A stretch of DNA of 64,000 bases from Phycisphaeraceae bacterium (GTDB lineage: Bacteria > Planctomycetota > Phycisphaerae > Phycisphaerales > Phycisphaeraceae): assembly GCA_029260715.1 (NCBI GenBank), contig JAJDCS010000026.1, forward strand, positions 1-64,000. The letters are read 5' to 3'. Positions within the stretch are counted from its first letter, which is position 1. The number at the start of each line of letters is the position of its first letter. This document shows positions 2,752 through 59,459 of this stretch, piece after piece. The notes under the pieces are model-generated. The model was not told the DNA's origin. It was given only the letters and a program-made list of their open reading frames with translations, and made no database searches. A program made the translations under genes and the position numbers.

Positions 2752-3510
2752 TCAGGCTCGCCGTGTGCGGCGGGGCAGGGCCAGCAAACCCAATCCGAAT
2801 ACCCCGAGCGTGCCGGGCTCGGGCACTTCGGGTGACGTGTTTTCAATAATTTCAATACTAGAAATAACCGCAAGGTTGTCGCCAATGACAGGCACGGTCC
2901 CTGGGTAGTTGATGAGCGGGATATCGCTGAACGCGCCGCCGCCGTCAAAAACGGGCAACGCGGCGATCGCGTCTACAACATCCATGCCATTGCCCAAGAC
3001 CTGGCCGAAGACGGTGAACCCGCCATTCTGATTGTTCAAGTTGGCGCTGTTATCGCCGAGATTGAAGAACCACTGGTTCGTGGCGCTGTTAATGGATTCG
3101 GGGGTGGGGTCTTGACCTTGTGGCGGGCCGATCTTGGCCATGGCAATCGTGCCGCGTAGGTTGGAGATGCCCGGCTCGTTGATGACAGGGGCTTTGTCGG
3201 GAACAATATTCAACGCCAGCGGGTCGTTGTTGGTAACGACATACCCACCGCCTTGCAGGACAAACGGCGTGCCGTCGAATAGCCGAGCGGAGCGGTGGAA
3301 GAATGTATTAACGTAATCGTCGTCAAGGACGTAGTTGAGGAAATTATCAACGGTTTGGGGCGTTTCTTGGGCAAACAACTCGACGTCGATATCCCCCAGC
3401 ACCGTGTGGAACCGAACGATCACTTCGGCTTGAGCGGGTGTCGCCGCGGCAAAGCCAAGCATTCCTACCAGGCAGGCTGTCAATAACGTATACCGGTTCA
3501 TTCTTCCCAT
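2752..3510 (-). CDS. PEP-CTERM cyclophilin-type peptidyl-prolyl isomerase
   Basis: 252 residues: signal peptide (cleavage near PAQA-EV, residue 28), a cyclophilin domain about 29-215, and a PEP-CTERM tail (VPEPGTLG, hydrophobic stretch, RRTRRA). Cyclophilin marks are HTVLGDIDVELF, TVDNFLNYV, NTFFHRS, FVLQGGGY and FTVFGQVLGNGMDVVD. The Phe and Arg of FHRS correspond to the catalytic region of the fold. It should catalyse proline cis-trans isomerisation on exported proteins while anchored or processed by an exosortase, which is not in this window. ATG 3510 is preferred; an in-frame ATG at 3501 is possible. The gene stands alone with an AT-rich spacer upstream. Confidence 0.9.
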   Translation of the reverse strand: MGRMNRYTLLTACLVGMLGFAAATPAQAEVIVRFHTVLGDIDVELFAQETPQTVDNFLNYVLDDDYVNTFFHRSARLFDGTPFVLQGGGYVVTNNDPLALNIVPDKAPVINEPGISNLRGTIAMAKIGPPQGQDPTPESINSATNQWFFNLGDNSANLNNQNGGFTVFGQVLGNGMDVVDAIAALPVFDGGGAFSDIPLINYPGTVPVIGDNLAVISSIEIIENTSPEVPEPGTLGVFGLGLLALPRRTRRA

Positions 3511-4783: not shown

Positions 4784-4893
4784 GTATTCAAACTTTGATC
4801 TGTCGCCGGGATTAGGCAATCCGACGGCGGCTGGTCGCACCGGCCAGGGCGCCGAGGCTCAGCAGGCCGAGCACGGCTGTCACGGGCTCGGGC
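4750..4893 (-). repeat. 144-bp duplicated block, copy 1 (PEP-CTERM tail plus terminator)
   Basis: Matches 5876-6019 at a constant offset of 1126 with one difference (T4878 versus C6004). The block covers the terminator, the 3' spacer and the last 27 or so codons of the VWA gene. Similarity stops abruptly at both edges. Confidence 0.93.
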
Positions 4894-5555
4894 ACTGCAT
4901 TACCCGCATCGATGATCTCCTGCACCTTCGTGTCAATGAAGTTTACAAAGAAAGGATCGGGGTTGTTACGGAAGTCAAGGATATTGAAGCCCACGCCGCC
5001 GTGGTTAGCCGCCAGCACGCCGTACCGGGCGTCGGTGTTGCCCACGCCGGGTACGCCGATGAAGTTGAACAGCGCGTTTGCGTTGCCCAGGCCCGCGTTG
5101 GCGGTGTTAAAGTCAGCGACAGAGCTGTCGTCGTCTTCGTCGGTGATCAGGATGAAGTTCTTCACGGCGCCTACGCGGAAGGTGGTATTCGCCAGGGCGA
5201 CGTTCACCGCTGTGCTGCCGCTCTCAGGGTTGCCGGCGTTGGCGGTGAGGTTCTGGAAGGGGTTTCCCGCCATGGTGAAGGTCGTGAAGTCGGTCAGGTC
5301 CTGGAGGAAGTGACCGCCGGGAGCACCACCACCGACCCGGGTCAACGAGTACATCGCGTCGATGCCGTTGTTGATCATGGCGGTGTTGAAGTCGCCGATG
5401 CGGGCCTTGACCTCGGTAATGTCGTTACCCATCGACGCCGAGTTGTCGATCAGGAAGACGATGTCAGCCGAAATCACGGCGTGAGCTTGGCTGCCGATTC
5501 CCATGACAGCGATGGCTATGGCGATAGCCCCGAACTTTTTCAATCCATCTCTCAT
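4812..5555 (-). CDS. Exported VWA-domain protein with PEP-CTERM tail (copy 1)
   Basis: 247 residues: signal peptide to about AHA (residue 26), a von Willebrand factor A domain 29-215, and a PEP-CTERM tail starting VPEPVTAVLG and ending SRRRIA. The MIDAS motif DNSAS (Asp37, Ser39, Ser41) with a Thr/Asp-rich loop, NFILITDEDDD near 134-144, supports metal-dependent ligand binding. Such proteins probably mediate adhesion or matrix contacts at the cell surface. The ATG at 5555 has AGGGGAG at good spacing. Its tail is identical in sequence to that of the next VWA gene, a product of the 144-bp duplication. Confidence 0.9.
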   Translation of the reverse strand: MRDGLKKFGAIAIAIAVMGIGSQAHAVISADIVFLIDNSASMGNDITEVKARIGDFNTAMINNGIDAMYSLTRVGGGAPGGHFLQDLTDFTTFTMAGNPFQNLTANAGNPESGSTAVNVALANTTFRVGAVKNFILITDEDDDSSVADFNTANAGLGNANALFNFIGVPGVGNTDARYGVLAANHGGVGFNILDFRNNPDPFFVNFIDTKVQEIIDAGNAVPEPVTAVLGLLSLGALAGATSRRRIA

Positions 5556-5909: not shown

Positions 5910-6019
5910 GTATTCAAACTTTGATCTGTCGCCGGGATTAGGCAATCCGACGGCGGCTGGTCGCACCGGCCAGGGCGCCGAGGCTCAGCAGGCCGAGCAC
6001 GGCCGTCACGGGCTCGGGC
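5876..6019 (-). repeat. 144-bp duplicated block, copy 2
   Basis: Second copy of the block at 4750-4893, one mismatch. It comprises the terminator, the 3' spacer and the PEP-CTERM tail codons of the second VWA gene. Confidence 0.93.
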
Positions 6020-6714
6020 GTCGCACCGCTGGCTTGGATGATCTCCTCCAGCTTGCGCTGGGCGAAGTCCTGCACGAAAGCGTCGATCACCGTTTGGTCG
6101 GTCGTGTTGAACTGGTTCAGGTCAAACACGAACCCGCCGTGGTTGGTGATCAGGGTGCTGTAAGAGTTAATCGTGCTGGTGCCCCGGAGCACGCCGTTGT
6201 ACAGGGCGCTTTCCGCGGTCAGTAGGGCGTCGAGAGTCGTCGCGTTGGCGCCGGCCAAGTCGCCGTTGGAAGGTTCATCGGTGAGGATGATGATGTTCTT
6301 GACAGCGCTACCACCACGGAAGGAAATCCCGAGGGTGTTGGTGGGGCCGCCGTTCAGGGCCGCCATGGTGGCCTCGTAACCGGGCTCGGTGCCGCCGTTG
6401 GTCAGCAGCCCTTGTGCGGCTGTGGCGAACGTGGCGTCATCGGTCAGGTCCGTGAGCAGGCGGGGCCGCACGGTGCTGCTGCCGTAACCGACCAACGCGT
6501 ACTGAGCGTCCACACCGCCGGCGCTCAAGATGCTGGCGAACGCGCCGATGTTGTTACGCAGGTTGGTTTGAACACCGCCCATGCTGCCTGATTCGTCGAC
6601 GACGAACACCAGGTCGGCCATGATCACGGCCTCCGCCTTTGACGGGCCCATGATCATCGCCGCCGCGGCGACAGCGACGAACGCCACTTGCTTAGCCATT
6701 CCAAATAGTCTCAT
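5938..6714 (-). CDS. Exported VWA-domain protein with PEP-CTERM tail (copy 2)
   Basis: 258 residues: signal peptide to about AEA (residue 29), VWA domain 32-225 with a canonical MIDAS DESGS (Asp40, Ser42, Ser44), the NIIILTDEP strand near 140, and a C-terminal tail PEPVTAVLGLLSLGALAG ending in SRRRIA. The body is only distantly similar to copy 1, so the shared tail and terminator look newer than the split of the two domains. AAAGGAGGGG sits just before the ATG at 6714, implying efficient translation. Same strand and spacing pattern as copy 1, but each has its own terminator. Confidence 0.9.
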   Translation of the reverse strand: MRLFGMAKQVAFVAVAAAAMIMGPSKAEAVIMADLVFVVDESGSMGGVQTNLRNNIGAFASILSAGGVDAQYALVGYGSSTVRPRLLTDLTDDATFATAAQGLLTNGGTEPGYEATMAALNGGPTNTLGISFRGGSAVKNIIILTDEPSNGDLAGANATTLDALLTAESALYNGVLRGTSTINSYSTLITNHGGFVFDLNQFNTTDQTVIDAFVQDFAQRKLEEIIQASGATPEPVTAVLGLLSLGALAGATSRRRIA

Positions 6715-36329: not shown

Positions 36330-37100
36330 ATGAGCAGGGGAACTACGAGAGTATTTAGGGCTTTGATGATGCTCGGTGCAATGGCTGGGTTGACCAACGC
36401 CGCGCTGGCGGGTGCCAGCTTTAACACGTTTGCGTCATCCACACTGGAGATTATCACGATTGTGGATATCCCAGACGCGGGCGTTCCTGTGACGCTGGGA
36501 ACAGTGCCGGCTGATTTAAGCATCTTAGGCGGCGCCGGCTTTACGCCACTCACTTCAACAGTAGGCAACGCGGGAGCCAGCACAGGCGGCTCGTCCGCAA
36601 CCCCATCGGCTGGCACGAGCTTAGATGTCGGCGATAAGGTTCAGCAGGTCGCCAACATCACCGGCTTTGCGATCCAGCCGCCGGATTCAAGTGCTTCTGC
36701 CAGTGTTGACTCACAGGGCATGATTTCATTGAGCAACTCCAGCACAGACCACACCTATGTGGTGGTGTTTAAATTGGCTTACCAGTACAACGTTAACGCG
36801 TCTGGTGACAATGCTTTCAATGACAGCGCCTCTGCGGATGTAAGCATCTCGCTGGATACCACAGATGGCTTGAATTTCAATGTGTTCGAAGAGATGTTTT
36901 CGGAGACGAACGGTGGGGCGTTGTTTGATACCGACAGCTTTATCTTTACGCTAGTTGTCCCGTCGTCCGCTACGGACGAGCTTACCGTTGGCGTGAACAC
37001 GTCAGGCCAAGCCACGTCGCTAGTGCCCGAGCCGGCTGCGGCCATGGTTTGGGGCATGGGCGGATTCATCGGGATGGGCCTGCTGCGCCGGAAACGCTAG
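36330..37100 (+). CDS. Exported PEP-CTERM protein, beta-rich
   Basis: 256 residues: signal peptide ending near AALA-GAS (residue 28), an Ser/Thr/Ala-rich beta ectodomain, and a tail VPEPAAAMVWGMG to LLRRKR. I recognise no enzyme motif; the repeated short strands (VVVFKLAYQYNVNASG, ADVSISLDTTDG) suggest a structural beta-sandwich. Strong Shine-Dalgarno AAAGGAG and an efficient terminator mark it as a monocistronic, possibly well expressed, surface protein. Confidence 0.85.
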   Translation: MSRGTTRVFRALMMLGAMAGLTNAALAGASFNTFASSTLEIITIVDIPDAGVPVTLGTVPADLSILGGAGFTPLTSTVGNAGASTGGSSATPSAGTSLDVGDKVQQVANITGFAIQPPDSSASASVDSQGMISLSNSSTDHTYVVVFKLAYQYNVNASGDNAFNDSASADVSISLDTTDGLNFNVFEEMFSETNGGALFDTDSFIFTLVVPSSATDELTVGVNTSGQATSLVPEPAAAMVWGMGGFIGMGLLRRKR

Positions 37101-49484: not shown

Positions 49485-49773
49485 TTCCAGCGGGATCCCC
49501 GGTCGCGGCAGCCGGCGGTGGTGCAGCGGGTGAACGGGTCGGCCCCGATTTTTACTGGTAAACGCGGTTCTGGATTGGCATTTCAAGATGTAACGGTTGT
49601 TACGCCTGTAGGCCCGCTGCCTGTCAGACGGCTGGGGAATCTCTGGGGTGGAACAAGCCCCGTTCAACAAACGGTTCGATGGTCTTTCTAGGGGTCTGGG
49701 CGGGGTTGCCCGGACACGGCGATCTCACCGCGGGTAGCGCGGTGGGAGTGTGTTGCATTTTTGGTTTAAGGGA

Positions 49774-52491
49774 ATGGGTAGCCGTATGAAGGGATCATCG
49801 AAGTCGCCAGATCAGGACGGGCAGGGTCGGCCTTTGGGGTCAAACGGATCGGCGGGCCAAGGCAAGCCCGGGAAGCGGTCTGGGCTGGCGAACGGCGCCA
49901 CACGCAAGCTGAGCGTGGAGCCTTTGGAGCCGCGCATCTTGTTGTCCGCCACGTGGGTCGACGCGGACACGAGCGACGCTATCCCCGAACCAACCGCGGG
50001 CGACGACATCGGCATCGGCAGCGACTTCGCCGATGTGATGGACGGCCACGGCGGCGACGACGTGCTCTTCGGCGAAGGGGGCGATGACCTTTTTCAGTTT
50101 CAGGACGCCCAAGACGGCGACGTTGTCGCCGTTGACGGCGGCGACGGCCACGACACGATCGACCTGAGCGGGTACAGCGTTGACAACGTGACCTTCGGCG
50201 ACGGCACGCTCACGGTCGACCAAGGGGGCGGCAACTCTTTCACCATCCATCACACCCAGGTCGAGTCGATCACGTTCAGCGACACCACGGCCAGTGTGCT
50301 CACCGGTGACCACGCGGAAAACGGTTTCAGCGGCAGCGAGGTGTTTGTCAGCGGCGGGGAGGCGTTCCGGATCGACGTGGCGGGCAGCGGGAATGTGGAT
50401 TGGTCCTTCGACGCGGACACGGGCTCGCTGACGGTTGGCGACACGCACGGGACGGGCCACGGAACGAGCCTGTCGATCAACGACCTGACCGGCACCGACC
50501 TCAACGTTGAGCACGTTTCGATCCGGACGGACCTGGGGGCGCTCGATAGCAACGTCGATATCGACACGCTGAGCATCGCCAACAACCGCAACATCGACGC
50601 CATCACCGTGGGCAACGGCATCGGGTCGATCGGCACGCTTGATTACGCTTACAACGTCGACTCCAGCGCGGTGATCAACGCGAACGTGGGGGTTGTCGAG
50701 ATCGGCAACAATGTTGAGTGCGACGTGAGGCTCCAGTTCAACGGCGACGTGGGGCAGATCGATCTCGTCTGCTATCAGGTCGGTGATATCAGCGTGACGG
50801 GCAATCTCGGTAGTTTCCAGGCTGGCGGGGTGACGGGTGATATCACCGTCGGCGGGGACGCGGGGTCGATCACCATCCAAACGCCCGGGTCTGCGGACGA
50901 CTTGGCGGGGAACCTTATTGTCCAAGGCAACCTGGGGCAGCTTGACGTCGGAGACGACATCACCGGCTCGGTCACGGTTAGCGGGGACGTGGGCGGGATT
51001 TCCGTGGGCGATCGGATCACCAAGGACATCACCATCGGCGGCGACCTAGACGCCTTCAGCGTAGGCGGTAGTTTTACGGGTACGCTCACGGCTGATCAAG
51101 TGAACGGGCAGTTTGATCTGCACGACGACGGACGCAGTTATTCAAACGAGTTTGAGTCAGACACGCAGGTGGTCTACGACGGGGCAACGCACACGCTTAC
51201 CGCCAACGCCTCTGTGCTGCAGCCGATCGCTGTTGACGACGTGGTGACGACGCAAGAAGACACGCCCGTTGTCACCGGCAACGTTTTGGCTAACGACACG
51301 GCTTACAACACGAACCTGGTGGTGAACGGCAGCTTTGAGAACACGCTTGTTCTAGACGGCGGGTGGCAGGTGTTCTCAGACGGTATCGCAGGCTGGAAAA
51401 CGTCCAACGGGCCCGGCATCGAAGTGCAGAGCAACGCAGCCGGCTCCGCGCTGGACGGCAATCAGCACGTCGAACTCGACAGCCACGGGTCCAATTACTC
51501 GCAGGCCAACAGCGGGATGTACCAAGATATTGATACGCAAGAGGGCGATGCGTACACGCTTGAGTTTGCGTACTCGCCTCGGCCGGGGCGTGGTGCGGCT
51601 GATAACGCCATCGAGGTTTGGTGGGACGGGCAACTGCTCGACACCATCACAGCTGACGGCACCGGGTTAAGTGATACCGACTGGCAGCACCACTCGTACG
51701 AAGTCACGGGCGGTAGCGACACAACTCGGCTAGAGTTCCGAGCGGTCGGGACGGGCACCACCTACGGGGGGTATCTCGATGACGTCAGCGTGGTCGGTGA
51801 GAACACGCTAGAGGTCACCGAGCACACACAAGGTTCGCACGGCAGTGTGGTTTACAACGGCGACGGCACGTTCACGTACACGCCGCAGGGCGACTTCAAC
51901 GGTGTGGATACGTTCGAGTACACGGTGGCCGACGGGAACGGCGGCTTCTCGACGGCGACGGTGTCGGTGACGGTCGAGGCGGTCGATGACCCGGTTCCAC
52001 CGCCTGTTGATAACAGCCCACCCACGGAGGATGAGGAAGACGATTCGTTATGGGACGGCAATGAGAACTTGGCGGTGCTGCAGACAGGGGGCGGCCCTGA
52101 CGAAATCGAGTTTAACCCTCCGCCTGAGTTGAGTGCCGATAACAGTATCGGGGTGGCTGATCCGCTGTCGGTGTCGCTTCATGCGCCGTCTCTAGACTTG
52201 TTTAGCGAGATCATTGAATCGCCGCGTTATGAGCCTATAGATATACAGATTCCCAGTGATGAAGCGCGTTTTGAGGATGTGTTTGAGGCTGGCGGAGATG
52301 TGCTTGTTCCATTTATCGACCCTAACGACGGGGCGGACCTGCAGGCTACGGCGGCGGGAGCGGGGGCTGAGGGGGATATCCCCGACACTTTCCTGACGCA
52401 ACTGTGGGGCTTGCTGCGTGGCGCGGCGGGGACGACCAAGGCGACGGACGAGCCCGACGCCCCGACAAATCGGACCCGCGGTCGCTCATAA
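49774..52491 (+). CDS. LEPR-XLL surface protein with RTX-like, beta-helix and VCBS-type domains
   Basis: 905 residues from ATG 49774; GTG 49750 or ATG 49786 are also possible. Order: a disordered Lys/Gly head; the LEPR-XLL motif [11 protein letters not shown] at 49-59; RTX-like calcium-binding repeats ([15 protein letters not shown]); Gly-Asp-rich repeats of about 11 residues resembling a beta-helix ([24 protein letters not shown]); a lectin/DUF642-like domain (NGSFENT to LDDVSV); a VCBS/cadherin-like module with [15 protein letters not shown] and [12 protein letters not shown]; and an acidic tail. LEPR-XLL proteins are large surface proteins of planctomycetes whose export is unknown. The next three genes may secrete it. 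Confidence 0.85.
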
Positions 52492-52683
52492 GCCTTGCTC
52501 GGTGGGTCGATAGTAACTCTAGCGACAATGACGGGTGTACGGGCGGCGTCCCGGCTGGTAGGGCGGCTAGGGCGCTTGTGTTGCTTGAATTTGCGCGCTC
52601 GGAGCGGGCGGTCAAGTTGTTGAGTACATCTCGGGTTAATGGGCGGCGGCGAAACCACGCGGTGGAGCAAGAGGAGGCAGAGC

Positions 52684-53124
52684 GTGTTCGATCAGCTAGA
52701 GGGGGCCGATCACGGCCTCGGTTCAAAAGAAGAAACCGAGTTGCTCGCTGAGCTTGAGCGGAACAAGCCCGAGGAGATCCGCCGACAGCGTGGGCAGGAG
52801 CGGATCGCCATCAAGGCGCCGGTGGTCGTTCAGCCCGGCAACACCAGCGACCTTCAGAAATTCAAAGTCCAAGGCACGACCGGCGACGTCTCCGAGCAGG
52901 GGTGCCGTGTTTTGCTGCCGATGCCGATGGGCGTTGGTGACATTTACCGGATGACGTTCGGCGGTGAGTTGAGCGGCCTGCCGCTGGCGTTTGCGCGTTG
53001 CATCCGGTGTCGGATGGTTCGTGAAGACGCATACGAGGTCGGCTGCACGTTCTTTGTATCGCTGGGGCTGTCCGGCGTGTTGGAAAAATTAAACGCCGAC
53101 GGCGGCGCCGCGGGTGATCAGTAA
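52684..53124 (+). CDS. PilZ-domain c-di-GMP receptor protein
   Basis: 146 residues from GTG 52684, chosen over ATG 52639 because GAGGAGG sits 6 nt upstream. The two c-di-GMP motifs are present: RxxxR as Arg36 to Arg40 within RRQRGQER, and DxSxxG as DVSEQG at 68-73. The remainder is the PilZ beta-barrel. It probably gates the adjacent adaptor or surface protein in response to c-di-GMP, as the PilZ-linked polysaccharide exporter Alg44 does. Lies 192 nt after the LEPR-XLL gene and overlaps or nearly touches the GAF-HlyD gene. Confidence 0.88.
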   Translation: MFDQLEGADHGLGSKEETELLAELERNKPEEIRRQRGQERIAIKAPVVVQPGNTSDLQKFKVQGTTGDVSEQGCRVLLPMPMGVGDIYRMTFGGELSGLPLAFARCIRCRMVREDAYEVGCTFFVSLGLSGVLEKLNADGGAAGDQ

Positions 53125-53146
53125 GCATGCGGGCGTTTGCAAAACG

Positions 53147-55030
53147 ATGATATCCCAATATACCGCCACACTGTCTGATGATCTCACCACGGAGGGTGAG
53201 CAGCCCAACGGCTTGGACACGTACCAAGCCATCAGCGCGCTGTCGCGTCGGGCGACATCGAAGCCGGTTTATTATCAAGAGGCTTTCCGTATTATCGCCG
53301 AGTCGTTTCACTGCCCGTACGCGATGCTGCACGTGAACCTCGGGGCGACGGTGGTTGAGGATACTTGGCACAGCGGGTCGGTGGACCCCGCGTTTTGGAA
53401 GGGCAAGGTCGACCGACTGCTGGGCGAGTGCGTGTCGGACAGCGCGGCGCGTCTGCAGTTGTACAACGCGCGGGAGTCGTCGCTGCGGCTGGCGTTGGTG
53501 GTGTGTCCGATCTTGGACCCCCAGGGGCACCCGATGGGCGCGGTGGCGGGCGCGGTCAGCGGGCGGGAGGAGTTCAATCCGCACGCTTGTTTGGCGGAGT
53601 TCCAGGCTTTGACGAGGCTGGTGTCGAGCTGCGCGACGATGGTCGCAAGCGAGTCTGACCGCGGCGGCGGCTTGGGGGTTTACGCTTCGCTGCACAAGGT
53701 GGCTTCGTACCGCACGAAGCACGAGATGGCGTTCGCGATCACGAACAACCTGCGGAACAAGACGGGGTGTGAGCAGGTGGCCTTGGGCTTGGTGCGTGGC
53801 AAGCACATCCAGTTGTTGTCGATCTCGGGTTTTGATGACGTGTCAACGCGTAGCCCCGGTGCGACGGCGGTCCGCGTTGCGATGGAGGAGTGTCTGGACC
53901 GGGGGCAGACGACGGTGTGCCAGCGTGAAGACGACTGGCACCAGGAGGGCCTGGCGACCGGCCACCGCCTGCACAAGCAGTGGAGCGCGACCACGGGGTC
54001 TTCGTCGGTTTGCTCGATCCCGTTGATTGATGACGGCCGGTGTATCGGTGTGCTGAGCATGCGCCGCCCGGCCGACAAGCCGTTTGATCGGCAGGAGGTC
54101 CAGGCTGTCGAGAAAGCCATGACGCCGCTGGTGCCGGGCATCTTGTTGGTGGACCGGGCCGATCGCGGGCTGTTGGCTCATGTCAAAGACACGGGGCGGC
54201 GGGCGGCGACCGCGGTGTGGCACCGAGACCACCCCGTGCGCAAGTACATTGTGGCGGGGGCCGCGTTGGCTGTGCTGTGGTTCTTTTTTGGGTCGCTGAA
54301 CTACCGTATTACGGTTCCGTGCGTGCTGGTGCCCGCCCGGGCCCAGCACGTGGTGGCGCCTTACGAAGGTGTGATCAAGGCGTCACACGTCACGGCTGGG
54401 GATCGGGTGACGCAGGGCCAGGCGTTGTATGAGATGGACGCGTCTGAATTGGAACTGGAGCGGGACCGGTTGGTAGCGAATATCGCGGTGTCTGACATCG
54501 AGATCGACCGTGCGGTGGCGAACAAGTCAACGATCGACGCGAAGCTGGCGCGGGCGCAGCGTCGCGTGCACGAGGCGCAGCTGCAGGCTATTGAGCGCAA
54601 GCTCAAGCAGGCGGTGGCCCGGTCAGGCTTCCAGGGCACGGTGGTCAGCGGCGATCTGCGTCAGCGGATCGGGCAGGTGATCGCGCAGGGCGAGCCTGTG
54701 TTTGTGTTGGCGCCGTCGGGCGGGTGGATGCTGGAGTTGGAGGTGCCCGAGTCGGGTGTATCCGACGTGGGGGCGGGGCTGACCGGTTGGTTCGCGTCGC
54801 ATGCGCGTCCGGAGGAGACGCTCGTGTGTCGGATCACGCGTGTGCAGCCCTCGGCCCAGTTGCGGCGTGATCGTAATGTGTTTGTCGCCGAGGCCGAGGT
54901 TGACATCCAGGCGCCGTGGATGCGGCCGGGCGTGGAGGGCGTGGCGAGTATCGACGCGGGGCGGCGACGCGTGTGGTGGGTGTTGCTGCACCGGATGGTG
55001 GATTACGTACGGTTGAAGCTATGGGTATGA
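53147..55030 (+). CDS. GAF-domain HlyD-type membrane adaptor
   Basis: 627 residues from ATG 53147 (a GTG at 53114 overlaps the previous stop). Two cytoplasmic GAF-like domains (about 35-160 and 195-345), a membrane span near 366-388 (KYIVAGAALAVLWFFFGS), then a periplasmic adaptor with the biotinyl-lipoyl half-motifs (PYEGVIKASHVTAGDRVTQGQALYEM, VVSGDLRQRIGQVIAQGEPVF), a coiled-coil hairpin and a beta domain. GAF sensing fused to an efflux adaptor is uncommon. It overlaps the M50 gene, forming a transport pair; the GAF part may sense a small molecule or a neighbouring protein. Confidence 0.85.
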   Translation: MISQYTATLSDDLTTEGEQPNGLDTYQAISALSRRATSKPVYYQEAFRIIAESFHCPYAMLHVNLGATVVEDTWHSGSVDPAFWKGKVDRLLGECVSDSAARLQLYNARESSLRLALVVCPILDPQGHPMGAVAGAVSGREEFNPHACLAEFQALTRLVSSCATMVASESDRGGGLGVYASLHKVASYRTKHEMAFAITNNLRNKTGCEQVALGLVRGKHIQLLSISGFDDVSTRSPGATAVRVAMEECLDRGQTTVCQREDDWHQEGLATGHRLHKQWSATTGSSSVCSIPLIDDGRCIGVLSMRRPADKPFDRQEVQAVEKAMTPLVPGILLVDRADRGLLAHVKDTGRRAATAVWHRDHPVRKYIVAGAALAVLWFFFGSLNYRITVPCVLVPARAQHVVAPYEGVIKASHVTAGDRVTQGQALYEMDASELELERDRLVANIAVSDIEIDRAVANKSTIDAKLARAQRRVHEAQLQAIERKLKQAVARSGFQGTVVSGDLRQRIGQVIAQGEPVFVLAPSGGWMLELEVPESGVSDVGAGLTGWFASHARPEETLVCRITRVQPSAQLRRDRNVFVAEAEVDIQAPWMRPGVEGVASIDAGRRRVWWVLLHRMVDYVRLKLWV

Positions 55031-57171
55031 ACCAGAGCAACCCGCCGCCGGGCGGCGTGGACCTGGCGGAGCGTCTTCGGCACGTGCACGTGGGTGTGCG
55101 CCCGGAGTTAGAGGTTAGCCGCCACGTGTTTCGGGGCGAGCCGGCGTACATCGTGACCGACCCGATCACGTTTCAGAGCCACCGGCTGACGCCCGCGGAG
55201 TATGAGGTGCTTGCGGCGCTCGAGTCGGAGCGGTCTTTGGACGAGACCTTCCAGGGGTTAATCGAGCGGGGCAGCCTCGAAAAAACAGACGAGCAGGATT
55301 TTTACAGTTTCATTTTCATGCTCCACCGTTTCGCGTTCTTGAACCTGCCGATTTCAGACGACAAGACGCTGTACCGCCGTTTCGAGGCCCGGCGCGCGGC
55401 GCGCCTGAAGCAGAAGGCCATGGGTTTTTTATATTTGCGCGTGCCGCTGGTGAATCCGGATCATTTTTTGACCAAGACGGTGGGGCGTGTGCGGTTCTTG
55501 TTTTCACGGTTCTTTTTTGTGGGGTGGTTGGGCTTGATGGCGGTGTGCGCCGCGGTGGCGGCGATGCGGTGGCACGACCTGATTGAGCCTCTCAACGGTG
55601 TTCTGGCGGCGGAAAACCTGCTGCTGTTCTGGGGGCTGTTTGTTGGGCTGAAGCTTGTCCACGAGATGGGACACGCGTACGCGTGCAAGCATTTTGGCGG
55701 GCACGTGCCCGAGATGGGGGTGTTCCTGATCGCGTTGACGCCCTGTGCGTATGTTGACGCCAGCGCGTCGTGGGGTTTTTCCCGCGTGCGGGAGCGGCTG
55801 ATCGTCTCGCTGGCGGGGATGTACATCGAGTCGATCGTGGCGGGGGTGTCGCTTCTGGTGTGGAGCGTGACGGCGCCGTCGCTGATCCACGACCTGGCGT
55901 ACCAGGCGTGCTTCATGGCGAGCGTGGTGACCGTGGCGTTCAACGTCAACCCGCTGATGAAGTTCGACGGGTATTACATCTTGACCGACCTGATCGGCAT
56001 GCCCAACCTCCGCCAGCAGTCGGTGGCGTTTGTGCGGGGTGTCTTTAAGCGTATAGCGTTGGGGATCAAGTCGCCCGATGCGCCGCGGTCGTTTTCGACC
56101 CGGGTGATCCTGTTTTCTTATGGTGTTGCATCATCGGTGTACAAGGTGTTTGTGGTGTTTGCCATCGCGGGCCTGATCGCCACGAAGCTGTTTCTGGTGG
56201 GTATGGCGTTGGCGGCGGCGTATGCCGGCACGCTGGCGTTTCGGCTGGTCCAGTCGGCAACGCGTTACCTGTGGTGGTCGCCCGACACCGTGGCGGTGCG
56301 CCCCAGGGCGATCGCGGTCAGTGTGCTGCTGATCCTTGTGGTGCCCTTGGGGATCGCGGCGGTTCCGCTGCCGGTGAAGGTCACAACGCCTGGCGTGGTC
56401 ACGACCGAAGCCGAGCGTGTGCTGCGCGCCGGCACGCCGGGGTTTGTGAAGCGGGTCCACGTGCAGCCGGGCGATCGCGTGGCCGCGGGCGGGGTGCTGG
56501 TGGAGATGGTGAACCCCGACCTCGATTCAGCAGTGGCCCAGGCGGCGGCACAGGTCGAGACGTCCGAGCTACGCATCCAAGCCCACGAAGCGGGCGAGTC
56601 GCCCAAGGCTTCACAGGAGATCAGCCGGCTGAGCTACTTCCAAAGGCAATACGAGCACAGCCGGTCCGAGTTGGCCAAGCTGAGCGTCACCGCGCCGCGG
56701 GGCGGTTTTGTGGCCCAGTGCCTCAAGCCATCGGACGTTGACCGATTTTTGCAGACGGGCGACCCGGTGGCGACGGTCAGCGGCGGGCGGTGGGTCGTGC
56801 GGTGCTTGCTTACCGCTGATGAATTTACGGCGGCTAAGCCTGAAGTGGGGCAGGCGGTGCAGTGCCGTTCGTCTGTTGACCCGTCGCTGCGTTTGGCTGG
56901 GTCGGTGGTGAAGATCGCGGGGTCGGGTCAGCGCGAGATTGATATCCCGGAGTTAACGCACCTGGCGGGGGGGCGGATCCCGATCAACCCGCGTACCCAC
57001 GAAGCGGCTGAGCCGTATTTTGAGATTACGATTGCGTTTGAACCCGGCGAGATCCCCGCGCTGCGCAAAGGCATGACGGCCTACGCGCGGTTCGACGGCA
57101 CGTCACAATCGATTGGCGTGCAACTGGTGCGACGTCTGCTGTGGTTCCGGAACCACTTGTTGGCGGGCTAA
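55021..57171 (+). CDS. PqqD-like / M50 membrane protease / HlyD fusion
   Basis: 716 residues from ATG 55021 (a second ATG at 55027 gives an ATGA overlap). N-terminal PqqD-like domain about 25-105 (FRGEPAYIVTDPI, EYEVLAALESERSLDETFQGLI); six or more membrane segments; zinc site HEMGH at 214-218 and the NPLMKFDG motif with Asp316, as in site-2-type M50 proteases; then a periplasmic HlyD domain from about 455 (VKVTTPGVVTTEAERVL, GTPGFVKRVHVQPGDRV). Such putative peptide zinc metalloproteases occur with secretion systems. Here it may process or translocate the adjacent surface protein. No ABC exporter is in the locus. Confidence 0.88.
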   Translation: MGMNQSNPPPGGVDLAERLRHVHVGVRPELEVSRHVFRGEPAYIVTDPITFQSHRLTPAEYEVLAALESERSLDETFQGLIERGSLEKTDEQDFYSFIFMLHRFAFLNLPISDDKTLYRRFEARRAARLKQKAMGFLYLRVPLVNPDHFLTKTVGRVRFLFSRFFFVGWLGLMAVCAAVAAMRWHDLIEPLNGVLAAENLLLFWGLFVGLKLVHEMGHAYACKHFGGHVPEMGVFLIALTPCAYVDASASWGFSRVRERLIVSLAGMYIESIVAGVSLLVWSVTAPSLIHDLAYQACFMASVVTVAFNVNPLMKFDGYYILTDLIGMPNLRQQSVAFVRGVFKRIALGIKSPDAPRSFSTRVILFSYGVASSVYKVFVVFAIAGLIATKLFLVGMALAAAYAGTLAFRLVQSATRYLWWSPDTVAVRPRAIAVSVLLILVVPLGIAAVPLPVKVTTPGVVTTEAERVLRAGTPGFVKRVHVQPGDRVAAGGVLVEMVNPDLDSAVAQAAAQVETSELRIQAHEAGESPKASQEISRLSYFQRQYEHSRSELAKLSVTAPRGGFVAQCLKPSDVDRFLQTGDPVATVSGGRWVVRCLLTADEFTAAKPEVGQAVQCRSSVDPSLRLAGSVVKIAGSGQREIDIPELTHLAGGRIPINPRTHEAAEPYFEITIAFEPGEIPALRKGMTAYARFDGTSQSIGVQLVRRLLWFRNHLLAG

Positions 57172-57390: not shown

Positions 57391-58086
57391 TTAGACGACC
57401 CGTTGCCGCTTGGTCGTGTACCCCAACACGCCTAGGCCCATCATGCCCAGGATCGCGGTGATCGGTTCGGGGACTCCTGTCTCGGGGATTACTGTAAAGC
57501 TGTAGGCAAACGGATCATTTGTAGATCCGTCTCCGGAAAAGGGGCTCGGGTTTTCAGGCAATGTTAGAAAAAGCTCTTGGCCATTGGAAAAGACGGCGGT
57601 CAGCACGGAGTTTGGTGTTGCGGCACCGTTGTTGAAGAAGGTGTCTTGGAAGTCCAGGACAATGTTTTGTGCTGGGTTGCCATCAAGGTCCGCCTGGAAG
57701 CTGAATACGTCACCAGAATCAAAGCCCGAGAAGGTATACGCCAAGACACCTAGCCGAGCAGTTTGAGGCGCGGGATCATTTGGCGGTGTGAACATCAAAT
57801 CGATACCAGGGTCTATGACGTTCGTTTCGTTGTAGATTCCGGCAATTGTGGCGAAATGTCGGTCGGGGCGGCCAATAGTGATCGAGAAGCTTGTGATCCT
57901 CGCAGCTAGACTGTCGTTCGTTAGCGTCATGATGGGAACATTCGGTGGATTCAGGTTTCCTGCCTCTCCTACAATTTGAAATGTAAATCCCGCTGTTGGA
58001 ATGGCGTGCGATACTTCTGAGAAAATGGCCAATCCCATTGCCGTAACGGTTGCAATGACAAGAGACTTGAGCCTAAACATCTTCAT
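57391..58086 (-). CDS. Exported PEP-CTERM protein within the secretion locus
   Basis: 231 residues from ATG 58086, chosen because AAGGAG precedes it by 6 nt; the 58173 start lacks one. Signal peptide to about SHA-IP (residue 28), a beta-sandwich ectodomain with GFTFQIVGEAGN and an internal TFSGFDSGDVFSFQADLDG, and a tail VPEPITAILGMMG to TKRQRVV. No recognised catalytic motif. Position between the M50 and the HlyD gene on opposite strands suggests a surface component linked to this cluster, but it has its own 5' region. Confidence 0.82.
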   Translation of the reverse strand: MKMFRLKSLVIATVTAMGLAIFSEVSHAIPTAGFTFQIVGEAGNLNPPNVPIMTLTNDSLAARITSFSITIGRPDRHFATIAGIYNETNVIDPGIDLMFTPPNDPAPQTARLGVLAYTFSGFDSGDVFSFQADLDGNPAQNIVLDFQDTFFNNGAATPNSVLTAVFSNGQELFLTLPENPSPFSGDGSTNDPFAYSFTVIPETGVPEPITAILGMMGLGVLGYTTKRQRVV

Positions 58087-58256
58087 TTGGAACTCCTTGG
58101 ATCTTCGGTTCGGGCTGCTTCTGCCAACTGGTAGCCGGGAATTCACATGTGACCCGTGCCAATAGCAGCTCAAATAGCCAATATAACATCATACGGGCAA
58201 CCCAAAACGACGCCTAGTCTTCCCAATAGATTTATTCTTAGTGCGCCTAACAACAA

Positions 58257-58496: not shown

Positions 58497-59459
58497 TCAG
58501 CGGGCGGGCGGGCCGTACGAGGCGTGGCGGGCCCCGTCGCCGGTCGCGGTGAGGGGCTGACCCGTTCGGGCGTCTAGCTTGAGTTGCAGCGTGAACCCGG
58601 CGGGCAGCAAATCGTTTTCATTGTCGATATCAAACACACACCTGAACGTCCTGCTGGCGGGGTCGATCACCGGGTCGATCATCTTCAGCGTGCCTTCGAT
58701 CGGCTTGCTCACGGGCTCTTGAGCGTCGAGCAGGTACACCTCGCCCCGTGAAAGCTTGCCGTACAACTTCAGGGGCAGTTGGATCTGCGCTTCGAGCGTT
58801 TGCAGCGCCACGAGCATGAGGATGGGGTCGGCGGCGGTGAGCGACGTGCCGGGCTGGGCCAGCACACGCACGACCTGCCCGTCGAACGGGGCGCGCACGG
58901 TGTGGCGGGCGAGTTTTTCCCGTTCGAGCTTCAACACCGCGGCATCGATAGAGCTTTTTCTAACCGCGAGGTCGTAGGCTACCCGTGCCTGGTCGCGAGA
59001 GAGCATGGCCTCTCGCAGCTCCCATTGTGAAGCGGCTTTGCCGTCGTACGCCTCTTTGACGCGGTTGAGTTGGAGATTGGCGTGCATGTAGCTTAGCTTG
59101 GCGTGCTCGATGGTTTCGGTGTCTTCCGCTTGGAGTTTTGCGACCTTAACGGCTGCGGCCGCCACGCGCAGGTCCATGATCGCAAGGGGTTGGTCTTTGT
59201 TGACGCGTTGGCCCTCTTCGACCTGAACGTCCATCAGCACGCCCTCAAACGGAGCGGCAAGGGTGACTTGATGGCGCGGCGATACCATGCCATGCAGGTC
59301 GTTCTGGGCGCGGGGTGATTGGCTGACGGCTTGGCCCCAACGGGCTTGGGCGGGTTGGTCGCTTGCGGTTTGCTGCGCCGCCGCCTGGCTATGCCAAAGC
59401 GATACGGCCGTCAGTGCAAGGGCTACGACCCAGGGCTTACGCCCGATAATCACACTCAT
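58497..59459 (-). CDS. HlyD/RND-type periplasmic adaptor protein
   Basis: 320 residues: signal peptide ending near QAAAQQ (residue 29), first lipoyl half-motif VTLAAPFEGVLMDVQVEEGQRVNKDQPLAIMD (about 66-96), a coiled-coil hairpin 98-170, second half HTVRAPFDGQVVRVLAQPGTSL, and the beta-barrel/MP domain to the end (VIDPASRTFRCVFDIDNE). Shape of an RND or ABC efflux adaptor without a membrane span other than the signal. GGAGGT precedes the ATG. It has no inner-membrane pump beside it, so it may extend the GAF-HlyD/M50 system or serve a distant transporter. Last residues GDGARHASYGPPAR are low-complexity. Confidence 0.88.
   Translation of the reverse strand: MSVIIGRKPWVVALALTAVSLWHSQAAAQQTASDQPAQARWGQAVSQSPRAQNDLHGMVSPRHQVTLAAPFEGVLMDVQVEEGQRVNKDQPLAIMDLRVAAAAVKVAKLQAEDTETIEHAKLSYMHANLQLNRVKEAYDGKAASQWELREAMLSRDQARVAYDLAVRKSSIDAAVLKLEREKLARHTVRAPFDGQVVRVLAQPGTSLTAADPILMLVALQTLEAQIQLPLKLYGKLSRGEVYLLDAQEPVSKPIEGTLKMIDPVIDPASRTFRCVFDIDNENDLLPAGFTLQLKLDARTGQPLTATGDGARHASYGPPAR

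Follow-up and report, generated by a model that had tools for sequence, protein, structure and literature searches.

An RRE-M50-HlyD protein of planctomycetes and its probable link to the export of LEPR-XLL giant proteins

We analysed a 64,000-nucleotide stretch of the genome of a Phycisphaeraceae bacterium (positions 1 to 64,000 of contig JAJDCS010000026.1, assembly GCA_029260715.1; hereafter the window), which encodes M50-HlyD, a protein that combines an RRE/PqqD-like domain, a predicted intramembrane M50 protease and a HlyD/MexA-type adaptor in one chain. Genes for a LEPR-XLL protein, a PilZ protein and a GAF-HlyD protein precede it on the same strand, and a separate adaptor gene, possibly part of the same machine, follows on the other (Table 1). 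The first 10 bases of M50-HlyD, counted from its ATG at 55021, are shared with the end of the preceding gene, and the frame stays open further upstream, to a GTG at 54916. The LEPR-XLL neighbour is a member of its family by score (NF012209, 21.8 bits, cut-off 17) and also carries cadherin-like domains above cut-off. The RxxxR and DxSxxG motifs of the PilZ protein correspond to those that bind cyclic di-GMP (c-di-GMP). Genomes, loci and contigs are given below by our labels (G, L and C); G000 is the window's own genome, in which the window lies on contig C19.

Table 1 Features of the M50-HlyD operon and its surroundings in the window
Feature	Position	Strand	Basis or detail
LEPR-XLL protein, proposed cargo, 913 aa from GTG, later ATG start possible	49750..52491	+	NF012209
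Extended clade-specific leader motif of LEPR-XLL protein	49924..49989	+	Shared by leaders of the clade
C-terminal Trp-containing motif of LEPR-XLL protein, before tail	52390..52431	+	Shared form among clade cargo candidates
PilZ protein, RxxxR (residues 51-55), DxSxxG (83-88)	52639..53124	+	Pfam; alignment of 16 loci
GAF-HlyD protein, overlaps M50-HlyD start	53114..55030	+	Pfam GAF and HlyD_3 above cut-off
M50-HlyD protein: RRE/PqqD-like domain, predicted intramembrane M50 zinc protease, HlyD/MexA-type periplasmic adaptor	55021..57171	+	716 aa
RRE/PqqD-like domain, residues ~22-110	55084..55350	+	AlphaFold2 model, fold matches, Pfam PqqD in 14/28 relatives
HEMGH zinc-binding/catalytic motif, residues 214-218	55660..55674	+	Frame translation, alignments
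NPLMKFDG motif, residues 310-317	55948..55971	+	Frame translation, alignment
HlyD/MexA-type adaptor domain, residues ~450-692	56368..57096	+	Pfam, Foldseek, sequence profile
Separate HlyD/RND-type adaptor	58497..59459	-	TIGR01730 134.5 bits, cut-off 94.9

Domains of M50-HlyD

A first-pass annotation of this DNA had read M50-HlyD as one polypeptide with a PqqD-like fold, an M50 protease and a HlyD adaptor, and Pfam matches, residue conservation and AlphaFold2 models compared by Foldseek confirm that reading. The nearest named relatives are planctomycete proteins. The protease part has the HExxH and downstream NPxxxDG zinc-ligand motifs of the M50 family, with Asp316 of the second motif taken, by analogy with M50 proteases, to be the third zinc ligand. 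His214, Glu215, His218, Asn310, Pro311 and Asp316 were invariant in all 28 aligned relatives and again in 53 of 53 members of a second set; as this set was collected with the pattern NPLxxxDGY, only HExxH provides an independent check there. From these motifs, the domain is predicted to be an intramembrane protease.

Profile searches, which had been proposed as a check of all three domains, gave a graded outcome. HlyD_3 matched the window protein itself above cut-off (34 bits against 22.2), M50 (PF02163) fell slightly short (26.8 against 27.2) and PqqD gave no match in the Pfam scan of that protein. When the 28 relatives, the window protein included, were scanned singly at E ≤ 1, M50 was found in 28, HlyD_3 in 25 and PqqD (PF05402) in 14, with a best E value of 2.6e-7 for PqqD. 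The PqqD assignment therefore rests on the relatives and on the fold.

The N-terminal 131 residues were modelled with AlphaFold2 from a 67-sequence alignment, with a mean predicted local distance difference test score (pLDDT) of 84.5 and block means of at least 92 for residues 21-100. The model consists of three strands followed by helices, in the three-strand, three-helix winged-helix arrangement of RRE domains. Its top fold matches in the PDB (5v1v, 5v1u and 6jx3; Foldseek E 0.006-0.011, probability 1.00; VIA Z 9.3-9.5) are leader-binding lasso-peptide proteins solved with their leader, and PqqD itself (5sxy) aligned with a VIA Z of 8.1. Between the domain and TbiB1 (5v1v), 6jx3 and PqqD, sequence identity is only 11-19%. 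Non-RRE proteins with a similar domain scored nearly as well, namely the methyltransferase 8hkr (Z 9.1) and GdmN (8.4-8.8). The PqqD-like fold anticipated for the first 100 or so residues, whose absence would have counted against the domain reading, is thus present in the model, and leader binding is predicted from it; because the Foldseek E values are modest (best 0.006) and non-RRE proteins follow closely, the RRE fold is clear but does not prove the function.

A PDB sequence search with the N-terminal profile was set aside as proof of PqqD, its matches being weak and mixed: two designed TIM barrels (E 0.0026 and 0.0034) ranked above PqqD (3g2b, E 0.0097). When the PDB was searched by sequence with a whole-family profile, the hits included the site-2 protease MJ0392 (E 0.018) and PqqD (E 0.096), and membrane fusion proteins scored far more strongly. 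The full-length AlphaFold2 model had a mean pLDDT of 87.8, and its adaptor part shows the membrane-fusion-protein fold, matching MexA, MacA and AcrA in Foldseek at E values of 1e-10 to 1e-13.

Co-occurrence with LEPR-XLL proteins

M50-HlyD tracks LEPR-XLL proteins across the genomes of two phyla. Among 294 genomes of the window's phylum, M50-HlyD (window protein as query, E ≤ 1e-10) was found in 73 and LEPR-XLL (E ≤ 0.01) in 27, with 26 genomes containing both (Fisher 8e-17). Grouping by family label gave the same picture: M50-HlyD occurs in 28 families, and these include all 14 that have LEPR-XLL (p 1e-8 if the total is set at 85, the highest family label encountered). In 232 gammaproteobacteria, the class of G319 (the genome of locus L175), the corresponding numbers were 31, 22 and 18 (Fisher 4e-15, or 3e-14 without G319 itself), and in four of these genomes (G408, G522, G503 and G508) the two genes lie at most 5 kb apart. 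A further 45 genomes, reached through 45 of our 80 named loci and none titled planctomycete, yielded LEPR-XLL matches in 36 cases at E ≤ 0.05; with that cut-off, 1 of 14 control genomes is matched as well. Peptidase_C39, taken as a control, occurred in 112 of the 294 phylum genomes and 9 of the 27 with LEPR-XLL (p 0.68); as this shows no association, a C39 exporter was rejected as the LEPR-XLL partner. Two limits apply to the searches. The 24-position LEPR-XLL family misses variants, as in G231 and G227, which it passed over and the leader profile described below recovered, and some short or weak M50 matches (for example G109 and G139; G342, G390, G474 and G505) may be other M50 proteins.

In the window's own genome, LEPR-XLL was matched at 17 places at E ≤ 1, all but one scoring above the family cut-off; two (C9:15 and C28:139620) have near-identical starts at contig ends and are possibly one gene counted twice. 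Judged by eye, the motif in these frames is preceded by tens of residues that appear rich in basic amino acids (starts not determined). A second M50-HlyD gene lies on contig C27, with HlyD and GAF-HlyD genes before it. SecA matches fall on contigs C9 and C33, the latter a short secondary SecA, and not on the window's contig. In several other LEPR-XLL leaders of this genome (L008, L012 and L015), a SxxYKxLxxxYR-like segment can be seen by eye tens of residues before LEPR; it is absent from the LEPR-XLL protein of the window.

A PilZ-bearing lineage and its cargo leader

In a FastTree phylogeny of 103 M50-HlyD rows, the window protein falls in a clade of 26 with local support of 100. Every one of the 17 rows that have PilZ within 6.5 kb falls in this clade, whereas none of the 53 that have SecA within that distance does. 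Because L133 and L088 are one contig, the number of distinct proteins in the clade is 25, and that of distinct PilZ rows 16. Nine of the 26 rows have neither gene nearby, five of which (L125, L126, L129, L134 and L135) begin near a contig end. Within the same 6.5 kb, the counts for the 26 clade rows and for the 77 others were 25 and 62 for GAF-HlyD, 13 and 37 for free-standing HlyD, and 4 and 13 for TolC-type genes. Gene calling around the operons relied on rough open-frame rules and on phmmer with a small number of queries, and several loci are cut off by a contig end; the absence of PilZ, SecA, HlyD or TolC from any single locus is therefore soft. The tree covers 35 of the 115 M50-HlyD places found in the phylum; the remaining 80 score below 320 bits and the lowest clade member 397, so an overlooked member is unlikely. 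The window thus belongs to a SecA-less, usually PilZ-bearing lineage, distinct from the common SecA-associated one.

Within the lineage, the PilZ RxxxR motif is kept in 14 of 16 loci, as is [DN]xSxxG, and the exceptions (L088 and L132) sit in a four-row side branch. PilZ directly precedes GAF-HlyD in 15 loci (14 distinct). DUF3467 does so in nine; this small protein (L107:12850-13233, L175:7684-7992 and seven more loci) takes the place of PilZ outside the window's clade, with DUF3467 genes within 6.5 kb of 11 of the 77 other rows and none of the 26. Both DUF3467 proteins submitted to Pfam (L107 and L175) scored above cut-off, and the protein could be a chaperone or a regulator. Two loci have unusual neighbours: in the window's clade, a ParA-like ATPase gene, recognised by eye, lies between PilZ and GAF-HlyD (L076:6578-7354), and at L094:11057-13009 a SecA-like gene beside M50-HlyD looks degenerate (Pfam SecA_DEAD 82.8 bits), the other parts being present.

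The lineage is paired with its own form of the LEPR-XLL leader. All seven readable N-termini of large proteins beside clade operons (the window, L081, L082, L085 with L200, L127, L132 and L148) read RIxxSxTW. Regular expressions for LEPR proved too strict, and the VEAR variant of L132 and the far leader of G032 were read from translations. The TW of this extended leader occurs in none of ten LEPR starts beside non-clade M50-HlyD operons (L089, L099, L103, L110, L136, L142, L150, L178, L187 and L197, of which L103 and L136 are outside the tree), and it is likewise missing from the 16 further LEPR-XLL places in the window's genome. A profile built from the seven segments reached E ≤ 4.8e-5 in only eight of the 294 phylum genomes (G186, G000, G144, G032, G160, G231, G053 and G227). 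After a gap came a second place in G000 (E 0.0049) and then the next genome, G222 (0.0075); at E ≤ 1 the profile matches 131 of the 294, and we read everything on the weaker side of the gap as noise by judgement. All eight genomes are among the nine with a known clade member, the ninth being G270. Four of them (G186, G231, G053 and G227) were outside the training of the profile and all four read RIxxSxTW; the probability that four such hits would by chance all land in the five clade genomes left, out of 290, is 2e-8. For G186, G231 and G053, the contig ends before the leader protein does.

The candidates also resemble one another at the other end. In all 12 distinct clade loci with the C-terminus in view, an xLWGLLR-like segment, in which only the Trp is invariant, is followed by a charged, often basic tail. 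Because the search expression had been tuned on the very sequences that it went on to match (one unrelated short protein in L093 was hit too), this count is a description and not a test. Six complete LEPR-XLL proteins encoded in the same genome outside the window lack the motif. Two LEPR-XLL proteins outside the window's clade, L187:8758-14565 and that of L203 (G270), end with a similar PxWxxFDP segment, possibly the C-terminal signal of the other lineage. Inspection by eye also shows a stretch like GGDDTFRFTDAQNGDVYNVDGGDGQ both in L120:1-6654, the large protein beside the L120 operon, and in the LEPR-XLL protein of the window; the homology between cargo proteins of near relatives thus appears to extend past the leader.

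Proposed mechanism and alternatives

Part of this locus type is already in print. In the study of Kamneva, Poudel and Ward (2015; PMC4452313), M50, GAF-HlyD and HlyD genes stand together with a secondary SecA_DEAD gene, in hosts that include planctomycetes, with an OEP (TolC-type) gene in some loci and no ABC (ATP-binding cassette) transporter found. They suggested that M50 is the membrane part and SecA the ATPase, and termed the broader role completely unknown; their main text names no cargo, and LEPR, PqqD, PilZ, DUF3467 and DUF4347 are absent from it. The window shares M50-HlyD, GAF-HlyD and HlyD with that locus (HlyD on the other strand, 1.3 kb away) but has a PilZ gene and no secondary SecA. 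The architecture that the first-pass annotation had singled out is therefore not new as a locus type; what is added here is the link to LEPR-XLL cargo, the PilZ lineage without SecA nearby and the leader code of that lineage, none of which was found among the open-licence PubMed Central papers that the searches listed. Nor did these papers yield a description of an export route for LEPR-XLL giant proteins; the term was found in two of them, in passages that mention it in passing.

We consider it probable that M50-HlyD is the leader-recognising, and probably leader-cleaving, inner-membrane subunit of an exporter for LEPR-XLL giant proteins. We presume that the RRE domain lies in the cytoplasm; most likely it binds the LEPR-XLL leader of the precursor, which would take the place of a Sec signal peptide on the large cargo, and the M50 domain most likely cuts this leader off within the membrane. 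The chain would then pass the HlyD domain, GAF-HlyD and HlyD to a TolC-type channel, and so cross the periplasm. In the common lineage, the short secondary SecA, often encoded nearby, probably powers the transport, serving several LEPR-XLL proteins in each genome. For the window's lineage, the drive might come from the housekeeping SecA, from the proton-motive force or from folding outside the cell; the last would fit because the cargo candidates scanned carry RTX, PKD and cadherin-like repeats. Here c-di-GMP bound by PilZ probably switches surface display, and the operon seems dedicated to the one neighbouring LEPR-XLL protein. A more far-reaching proposal, which we offer tentatively and regard as doubtful, is that the SecA-less PilZ lineage constitutes a distinct machine, with RRE-M50-HlyD as leader receptor, peptidase and conduit, PilZ and c-di-GMP as its gate, and RIxxSxTW with the LWGLLR-like motif as its code, exporting giant cargo without an ABC transporter, a secondary SecA or a Sec signal.

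Such an exporter would resemble known systems in part. As in type I secretion, there are HlyD/MexA-type adaptor domains, and TolC-type genes lie near some M50-HlyD loci; unlike in type I secretion, the M50-HlyD adaptor is fused to a protease and an RRE, the proposed cargo leader is N-terminal, and no ABC exporter was recognised among the eight neighbours scanned with Pfam (elsewhere in the genome only Peptidase_C39 was sought, with no match in G000). LapA-type giant adhesins are under c-di-GMP control through LapD and LapG. The two pathways are alike in pairing giant, repeat-rich surface proteins with a protein that binds c-di-GMP, a resemblance of logic only, the proteins here being PilZ and M50 instead.

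Several points weigh against the proposed exporter. The domains, the conserved motifs, the linkage and co-occurrence of the genes, the lack of SecA in the locus and the pairing of leader with clade are observed; leader binding, cleavage, the transport path, the energy source and c-di-GMP control are steps that we infer. No energy source is evident for the SecA-less lineage. M50 proteases that have been characterised in detail cleave transmembrane segments, and the window leader, judged from its sequence, is not hydrophobic enough to be one. M50-HlyD is found without a LEPR-XLL match in 47 of 73 phylum genomes (E ≤ 0.01) and 13 of 31 gammaproteobacteria, and the exporter may have further cargo; conversely, five genomes (G153, G404, G441, G527 and G548) have LEPR-XLL without M50-HlyD. 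Only 6 of the 92 LEPR-XLL places listed lie within 20 kb of M50-HlyD, and Fisher tests ignore kinship. As for the leader pairing, clade member G270 shows neither PilZ nor the extended leader; in G186, G231, G053 and G227 the leader protein is encoded on a contig other than the operon's, and in G227 it also lacks the C-terminal motif at its end.

The strongest competing explanation, which we nevertheless judge unlikely, is that M50 acts in processing only: giant proteins would leave by the ordinary SecYEG/SecA route, and M50-HlyD, HlyD and TolC would act afterwards. It gains from the five genomes whose only M50-HlyD match is of the PilZ-type clade (G231, G186, G160, G144 and G227), each of which has a single SecA, with frames of 932-1032 residues, so that in these genomes the force must come from elsewhere. 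It is harder to reconcile with the window leader, whose best 15-residue Kyte-Doolittle mean of 0.6 gives no Sec-like hydrophobic core (the other LEPR-XLL leaders of the genome look similar by eye), or with the commoner lineage, which often encodes its own SecA beside M50-HlyD (53 of 103 rows).

We think it improbable that M50-HlyD is instead a maturation protease for a ribosomally synthesised and post-translationally modified peptide (RiPP), in which the RRE and M50 domains would cut a small modified peptide of daptide or epipeptide type and HlyD would help its export. RRE domains are typical of RiPP enzymes, and the best NCBIfam match of M50-HlyD is the daptide intramembrane protease NF041824 (E 2.2e-45), followed by YydH/LiaK (NF058609, 43 bits). 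The homology to NF041824 covers residues 52-416, part of the RRE and M50 region, but the score (155.4 bits) is about half the curated cut-off of 300, placing the protein outside that family; moreover, in M50-HlyD a HlyD domain follows. Among the eight neighbours scanned with Pfam there was no RiPP modifying enzyme and no daptide gene (small precursor genes were not sought), and the genes that recur nearby encode adaptors, PilZ or SecA, TolC and large LEPR-XLL proteins. The earlier reading of recognition, cleavage and hand-over of an exported peptide thus holds for the domains and probably not for a small-peptide cargo, since the cargo is likely to be large, repeat-rich LEPR-XLL proteins. An indirect association, with M50-HlyD serving envelope stress or efflux in bacteria that happen to have many giant surface proteins, would accommodate the many genomes without detected LEPR-XLL (47 of 73) but is very improbable given the flat C39 control, and the leader-clade pairing in eight of nine genomes, four of them outside training, together with direct adjacency in several phyla, is hard to explain in this way.

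The LEPR-XLL leader, which the first-pass annotation had raised only as the object of a test, has in this way become linked to M50-HlyD by co-occurrence, gene linkage and the clade-specific extended form. A widespread locus known since 2015 without assigned cargo now has a testable candidate in the LEPR-XLL giant proteins, and because the SecA-less lineage comes with its own matching leader, both leader specificity and the part played by M50 can be tested directly. The pairing suggests how giant surface-type proteins are selected and exported; if the proposed exporter is real, RiPP-style leader recognition serves the secretion of proteins thousands of residues long.

The window also encodes a PEP-CTERM protein (57391-58173, minus strand; Pfam above cut-off), which lies between the operon and the separate HlyD gene. 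PEP-CTERM-like tails were seen by eye in four more proteins of the window, at 2752-3510, 4812-5555 and 5938-6714 on the minus strand and 36330-37100 on the plus strand.

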